Origin: a virus
IMG/VR virus record: IMGVR_UViG_3300037189_019860
Location: 1-32,670 of that record
Length of the DNA stretch: 32,670 bases
Strand: one strand, 5' to 3'
Shown here: positions 1,564-2,526 of the stretch, one piece after another
Layout of the letters: every line of letters starts with the position of its first letter
How positions within the stretch are numbered: position 1 is the first letter of the stretch
Program-made: the position numbers and the translations under genes
Notes under the pieces: generated by a model
What the model was told of the DNA's origin: nothing
The model's database searches: none
The model's input: the letters and a program-made list of their open reading frames with translations, nothing else

Positions 1564-2526
1564 ATGGCAACCGCAACGACAGCATTTAGTGGTAGACCCA
1601 CACTATCGTTACGCTCTACCGTAACTGAAAGCAGTACAAACGCTAGCACCTATGTAACTTCAGTTAACTGGAGCTTGGTGATTATTGCTTCCAGTAACAC
1701 ATCTACGGCCTACAATACTGGTGGTACCGCTGCTTGGTCTATGGATGTCAATACTAATGGAAGTACTCCAGTATCTTCTGGAACCTATAGTTACGATTTT
1801 CGCGCACCGAATACAACAACAAATAAAACTATTGCATCTGGTAGTAAAAATATTTCTAGAGGCTCGTATGGGTCTTATACCACAAACTTTAGTGGATATG
1901 CAGATGGTGGAACTGGTGGTCTAATTGGTTCCGCTACAGCCGCTGGATCTCTTGCTCTAAGTAATATTGTTGCTCCACCATTCTTCCCATACTTCCCGCC
2001 ATTCTTCCCGTACTTCCCTCCTTATTTCCCATACTTCCCTCCTTATTTTCCTTATTTCCCACCGTTCTTCCCGTTCTTCCCTCCTAACTTTACTCCAGCT
2101 CCTGGATGGTCTGGAACCGGTACAGATGTTGTATTAGCTACAGCAACCGAAGGAATTTACTACTCAGATGGAATAGCTGCAAGTAATGCTACTTCATACT
2201 CAATTACCAGCGGTTCATTCCCTAGTGGAATAACATTTGATACTTCTACTGGAGCAGTATACGGGACACCAGCTACTGGAACTAAAGGAACATACAACTT
2301 AACATTCACTGCATCTGGTGCTGGAGGTAGCACTACAAGTGGGACTATAAGTTTGATTGTTGTTCCAGAACCTGGTCAACTATTTACATATGACACTGCC
2401 ACTGGAACCTGGAAAAAGGCAATAGTAAATACATACTCTAATGTGGGTGGAGTTCCAACATCAAGCAAGAATACCTTGTATGTATATGACTCAGCCTCAG
2501 GCCAGTGGGTAATTAGTAAGGGTTAA
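1564..2526 (+). CDS. Tail-tip structural protein with aromatic-proline heptads and a putative Ig domain
   Basis: 320 residues. Residues 1-135 are Ser/Thr/Gly-rich beta sequence resembling siphophage minor structural proteins of the DUF859 type. Residues 138-172 are five exact-length heptads, PP(F/Y)FP(Y/F)F, followed by a partial PPNF. Residues about 185-265 look like a putative Ig (He_PIG) domain: ITSGSFPSGITFD, then GTP, then a strand ending SLIVV. Residues 270-320 carry two short motifs ending TGTWKK and SGQWV, similar to the Trp motif at the head of the collagen fibre. It is the last gene of this + strand tail group and ends 3 bases before the convergent primase gene. A role in the virion adsorption apparatus is inferred from domains and neighbours. 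Confidence 0.7.
   Translation: MATATTAFSGRPTLSLRSTVTESSTNASTYVTSVNWSLVIIASSNTSTAYNTGGTAAWSMDVNTNGSTPVSSGTYSYDFRAPNTTTNKTIASGSKNISRGSYGSYTTNFSGYADGGTGGLIGSATAAGSLALSNIVAPPFFPYFPPFFPYFPPYFPYFPPYFPYFPPFFPFFPPNFTPAPGWSGTGTDVVLATATEGIYYSDGIAASNATSYSITSGSFPSGITFDTSTGAVYGTPATGTKGTYNLTFTASGAGGSTTSGTISLIVVPEPGQLFTYDTATGTWKKAIVNTYSNVGGVPTSSKNTLYVYDSASGQWVISKG
1975..2091 (+). repeat. Heptad repeat region coding PP(F/Y)FP(Y/F)F x5 plus PPNF
   Basis: Five in-frame 21-base units followed by a partial unit. The DNA copies differ at third positions (for example ttcttcccg against tatttccca), so the protein period seems to be kept by selection rather than by very recent duplication. Confidence 0.9.

Follow-up and report, generated by a model that had tools for sequence, protein, structure and literature searches.

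What does a tract of tandem proline and aromatic residues do in the middle of a putative phage tail protein? The question is raised by a 320-aa open reading frame of the window, that is, the whole stretch of 32,670 nt analyzed here (IMG/VR record IMGVR_UViG_3300037189_019860). The first-pass annotation placed five perfect heptads of PP(F/Y)FP(F/Y)F at 1975–2091, between two beta domains. These coordinates are exact, with the heptads running to 2079 and a closing PPNF to 2091, and the placement agrees with AlphaFold strands on both sides of the tract and with a Pfam match to an Ig-like domain at residues 201–266. The features considered below are the following.

184–1554, + strand: collagen-like tail-fibre gene, directly upstream of the tract ORF (Pfam Collagen, neighbours)
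1564–2526, + strand: tract-bearing protein, whole ORF, 320 aa (ORF and translation)
1564–1974, + strand: N-terminal beta-rich domain, residues 1–137 (identity to L002, L139 and L140; AlphaFold strands)
1975–2079, + strand: five heptads PP(F/Y)FP(F/Y)F, residues 138–172 (sequence; column variation)
1975–1995, 1996–2016, 2017–2037, 2038–2058 and 2059–2079, + strand: the single heptads (sequence)
2080–2091, + strand: PPNF, capping the tract, with another residue in place of the first aromatic (sequence)
2092–2523, + strand: C-terminal module, residues 177–320, Ig-like domain and tail (identity to L001 and L139)
2164–2361, + strand: He_PIG putative Ig domain (PF05345), residues 201–266 (Pfam)

The heptads read, in order, PPFFPYF, PPFFPYF, PPYFPYF, PPYFPYF and PPFFPFF, followed by PPNF; other tracts of the family described below close with PP or P followed by R/S/T/G/H-F. 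A degenerate DNA pattern for PxFPPxF has four matches in the window, all on the strand of the tract, and the backwards control pattern has none. The He_PIG match is well above the Pfam gathering cut-off (41.3 bits vs. 24, E 2e-10), and the tail of the C-terminal module carries two repeated Tyr/Trp motifs. For the N-domain no match was found in Pfam or PHROGs, and a PHROGs HMM search with the window protein yielded no families up to E 0.1. From the collagen-like fibre gene upstream and the tail genes nearby (Dit and minor tail genes are present elsewhere in the window) we infer that the product of 1564–2526 is a tail protein. A neighbour of this kind is also found ahead of the tract gene in L001, L002 and L139, and ahead of the tract-less relative in L140.

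The window encodes a DNA polymerase with 76% identity to its counterpart in Actinomycetia phage DSL-LC01, a phage assembled from a lake-water metagenome (PMC10611076), and WhiB is encoded in 10 of 49 tract-bearing records, including L001 and L002, close relatives of the window. The WhiB records and the DSL-LC01-like polymerase together indicate that at least part of the tract carriers are freshwater actinophages. DSL-LC01 itself has no such tract. A T4-like origin was considered and set aside, as Gp23 is absent from all 49 records, a weak argument given that no control matched either.

The first-pass annotation regarded such a rod as very unusual for a virion protein. It is not rare: a search of IMG/VR with a degenerate DNA pattern encoding PPxFPxFPPxFPxFPPxF retrieved at least 119 contigs whose tracts follow the same grammar. 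With a stricter pattern that includes Tyr, 14 IMG/VR matches were obtained, nine of them already in this set, and a rough capture-recapture estimate suggests approximately 185 carriers in all. Among 84,980 genomes of bacteria and archaea, the 3+4 pattern has no matches, and the period-4 pattern has 11, seven in spurious-looking ORFs and four in phage-like genes. The latter four (L129, L132, L136 and L137) are viral-looking PASTA-tract or fn3-tract genes in MAG contigs, with host bins assigned to Verrucomicrobiales, Gammaproteobacteria and Chitinophagaceae; they probably belong to phage contigs or prophages and not to the hosts proper. When the window protein, an fn3-tract-Hint protein and a PASTA-tract protein were used as queries, no tract-bearing record from cultured phages was retrieved, and since BLAST masks low complexity, these searches address the flanks only. 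The tract is not covered by Pfam, PHROGs or PDB, no description was found in the literature searched, and the repeat family is apparently undescribed so far.

Throughout the family the grammar is a tandem of (P or PP)-(F/Y)-F units in which the second aromatic is always F, and the window tract conforms to it; the longest tract among the matches listed has 175 aa. The strict period of seven claimed earlier holds in the window and does not extend to the family: as a general rule it was rejected, because units of three and four residues are mixed in most tracts, and the perfect heptad run of the window is a special, local case. Alternation of the two unit lengths only slightly exceeds that in shuffles (447 vs. 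419, s.d. 12). The phase of the invariant Phe, plotted against residues per turn, has a broad peak at 3.4–3.6, with little beyond what is seen in shuffled units. As the sample was drawn by a DNA pattern, the central units are fixed by design, and composition was calculated from the 1187 units outside the pattern: FF accounts for 1045, YF for 104, RF for 18, SF for 10 and WF for five, with five others. All 1187 end in F, under a definition in which a non-aromatic second residue breaks the tract and is not counted; pairs in the order Phe-Tyr, which the counting rule would have admitted, do not occur. Aromatic residues make up more than half of the tract, and charged ones are absent.

The claim that third-position changes reveal selection on the protein is borne out both in the window and in its relatives. 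Across the five 21-base copies of the window 8 of 21 columns vary, six at third codon positions and two at second positions (Phe to Tyr or back). In L054 and L099, the pair chosen as the clearest case, the 18 shared units (65 codons) differ by 31 synonymous and no replacement changes, with no indel. As the N-domains of these proteins are 88% identical, the tract in this lineage is more conserved than the domain flanking it. More generally, the composition, and in close relatives also the order of units, is kept while synonymous sites diverge. Judged by this substitution pattern, there is clear purifying selection on the tract at the protein level.

Codon use in the tracts is also distinct. Phe is encoded by TTC in 89% of cases (18–20% in other genes, 29% in the non-tract parts of these proteins), Tyr by TAC in 81% (28–30% elsewhere) and Pro by CCG in 26% (5% elsewhere), the last mostly where the proline immediately precedes the aromatic pair. 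In the window, TTC encodes 13 of 14 Phe residues of the tract vs. 117 of 322 (p = 3e-5). The bias is almost independent of GC, and the longest T-runs and pyrimidine runs of the tracts are about half of the expectation from genome codon usage. General avoidance of T-runs is insufficient as the cause of TTC preference, as FF elsewhere in the same loci is encoded by TTTTTT in 53% of cases. Selection of codons that are copied and translated faithfully may account for this, or else duplication may have spread a founder unit that happened to use TTC. The preference is inverted relative to the genome both at 1975–2079 of the window and in the tracts of 121 loci.

The reading we prefer, with our confidence about evenly divided for and against, is that of a proline-locked, extended (polyproline-II-like) stalk, which also acts as a joint, in a freshwater actinophage protein of modular build located at the tail tip or in a tail fibre. 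The AlphaFold model of the window protein (three-row alignment, low confidence) has eight strands in the N-domain, over residues 2–135, and further strands over 209–317, and the tract has neither helix nor strand. A fold search with this weak model gave vague beta-sandwich matches. The fn3-fn3-tract-Hint protein L012 (10-row alignment) is predicted better, with pLDDT about 90 on both sides of the tract, 33–43 within it and again no helix or strand there; its N-terminal part matches tandem fn3 domains of known structure. A tract predicted with low confidence in a single-chain model would be equally compatible with disorder. The earlier suggestion of a stiff polyproline spacer stands insofar as the tract is spacer-like, lying between beta domains with no predicted helix or strand. 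Its polyproline part is a deduction from stereochemistry: prolines and residues preceding prolines favour the extended polyproline-II conformation, and as most tract residues belong to one of these classes, the tract may be polyproline-II-like.

In such a stalk, the tract would keep the virion-side beta domain apart from the distal module, here Ig-like, and would provide the seam where phages swap distal modules. Prolines every three to four residues disfavour both alpha-helix and beta-sheet. If the stalk is oligomeric and fibre-like, its chains probably pack through the second Phe, invariant in every unit, the first aromatic position (F/Y, rarely R/S/W) being more exposed. Approximately 39 residues, if fully extended, would span roughly 12 nm, and the longest tract of the family roughly 50 nm. 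Since a plain spacer would need fewer Phe residues, an additional role, packing or binding, has to be assumed. The modular position, the exchange of both flanks, the presence or absence of the tract, the selection on the protein and the lack of predicted helix or strand are observations, whereas we infer the polyproline-II conformation, the packing of oligomers, the location in the virion and the receptor reach. A more specific version, which we find possible but rather doubtful, is a hitherto unknown fibrous architecture, with several proline-locked extended chains zipped together by stacked invariant Phe into a stalk of adjustable length, serving as a plug-in joint for many exchangeable distal modules in freshwater actinophages. 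The tract is, in any case, a candidate for a new fibrous motif consisting of proline and aromatic residues only.

On this reading the tract functions much as low-complexity stalks do in other tail fibres and in adhesins. Streptococcal antigen I/II, a bacterial surface adhesin, has a polyproline-II stalk that carries a distal head and is wound on a long alanine-rich alpha-helix; the tract proteins would share the long proline-repeat stalk with a distal binding head, but not the alanine-rich helix partner. Plant extensins, with their SPPPP-Tyr repeats, are extracellular structural rods that are hydroxylated, glycosylated and cross-linked via Tyr; the alternation of proline and aromatic residues is common to both, although the tract is Phe-based and viral. 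The only sequence match in PDB is to the RNA polymerase II CTD heptads (YSPTSPS), at chance level (E 2.5). These are also tandem heptads with prolines and one aromatic residue, but form a polar, phosphorylated, disordered regulatory tail, and no homology is claimed.

Closer at hand are the Gly-X-Y repeats of collagen type in phage tail fibres (e.g., the collagens of E. coli prophages, PMC3368898), which are neighbours in the same phages, as in the gene at 184–1554. Both are extended rods of low complexity that contain proline, vary in length and connect folded domains of modular tail proteins. Unlike collagen, the tract has units of three or four residues rather than strict triplets, and aromatics in place of small polar residues. 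A collagen-like repeat was rejected, as Pfam Collagen matches the neighbouring gene only and the tract has no Gly, so that a Gly-centred triple helix cannot form. An alpha-helical coiled coil was rejected as well, given a proline every three to four residues and two AlphaFold models that both leave the tract without helix, although the 3–4 spacing of the invariant Phe resembles coiled-coil heptads.

The role of the tract as a joint is seen in the relatives of the window protein. Its N-domain is 64% identical to that of L002, 59% to L139 and 39% to L140, and its C-terminal module is 64% identical to that of L001 and 40% to L139. By these identities, the window protein is an L002-type N-domain joined via the tract to an L001-type C-terminal domain. 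L139 has both flanks with a differently ordered tract of 41 aa. In L140 the tract is absent and the N-domain runs straight into three He_PIG domains, hence the tract is not essential to this type of protein. Tract lengths among these relatives are 0, 26 and 35–41 aa. In the family, 13 N-terminal and 41 C-terminal clusters meet at tracts among the matches listed, numbers that depend on the thresholds of single-linkage BLAST clustering, and one fn3 lineage of 71 proteins has 22 C-terminal types among the same matches. These types include Hint-like domains, PASTA, short Cys-rich ends, ends similar to the start of S74 and GPFFPGF tails. As far as comparison of flanks can tell, the tract is a domain-swap joint at which phages exchange end modules. 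It recurs in at least 119 viral contigs, marking where actinophages change the ends of tail proteins, and may serve as a sequence handle for candidate receptor-binding modules of uncultured freshwater phages.

One could go further and assume that the tract matters mainly as a DNA or evolutionary joint, with a shared, codon-homogenised repeat allowing unrelated tail genes to recombine and thereby swap distal modules, and the peptide merely tolerated as a linker. The many C-terminal types on one N-lineage, the uniform codons, hardly dependent on GC, and the presence of two tract genes in some loci agree with such a scenario. Nevertheless, we consider it unlikely, as the strict amino-acid constraint together with diverged third positions points to a role of the peptide, and a merely tolerated linker would accept other residues. 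A peptide role and a role as a recombination joint are compatible.

Contact with the host envelope, raised by the first-pass annotation as membrane binding, is, in our opinion, similarly unlikely. Here, the hydrophobic tract would lie on or in the host membrane or lipoglycan layer after distal binding, aiding irreversible attachment or genome entry, and the excess of aromatic residues and the lack of charged ones agree with that, with no counter-evidence in the sequence itself. On the other hand, tracts are flanked by folded domains on both sides or lead into a folded Hint or Ig domain, a free end not being the rule; the first aromatic position can also be occupied by Tyr, Arg or Ser; and prolines every three to four residues are not known from membrane helices or fusion peptides.

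Slightly less probable again is a glycan platform, in which Phe and Tyr, stacked along the stalk, would bind peptidoglycan or other polysaccharide of the cell wall and widen adsorption. Aromatic residues commonly stack on sugars, and PASTA domains, which bind peptidoglycan in other proteins, are also found in some tract proteins. On the contrary, the invariant residue is Phe rather than the Trp or Tyr usual in sugar sites, W occurs in only five of the 1187 units outside the pattern, and the tract has no polar partners.

Finally, neutral slippage, with a functionless low-complexity repeat growing and shrinking, for which the first-pass annotation had named free variation of copy number and sequence as the sign, is very improbable and, taken alone, appears largely contradicted by the substitution pattern: copy number does vary (from no tract to 41 aa among the relatives of the window protein, and to 175 aa in other tracts), but sequence does not vary freely, the second Phe and Pro being almost never replaced while synonymous changes abound, slippage-prone T- and pyrimidine runs are rarer, not commoner, than expected, and the tract is apparently confined to viral genes.

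Several types of end modules deserve a separate mention. A Hint (hedgehog/intein-like) domain follows the tract in L012, L025, L053, L089, L093 and approximately 27 further loci; it starts with Cys, often has His-Asn at the end and is weakly supported by Pfam. Such a domain could cleave or covalently attach the fn3-tract part. In L008, L029, L030, L037, L054, L063, L066 and L110 the tract is followed by Cys-rich ends of approximately 20–50 aa that differ strongly from phage to phage and look like small binding tips held by disulfides or metal. The proteins of L023, L042, L049 and L101 stop at the C-terminal SS(E/K)RFK(N/H/Y)(S/A/N)I, which we take to be similar to the beginning of S74, an intramolecular chaperone domain. 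The long proteins of L068 (1071 aa) and of L103, L104 and L112 (about 1060–1130 aa) contain WSxWSxC...RxRxW repeats similar to thrombospondin type 1, with no Pfam match to this stretch of L068. Two tract genes, always on the same strand, are present in 14 of 124 loci (L005, L011, L017, L021, L029, L049, L054, L082, L093, L120, L142 and L144–L146), a hint that the tract proteins encoded by one phage may dock onto one another.
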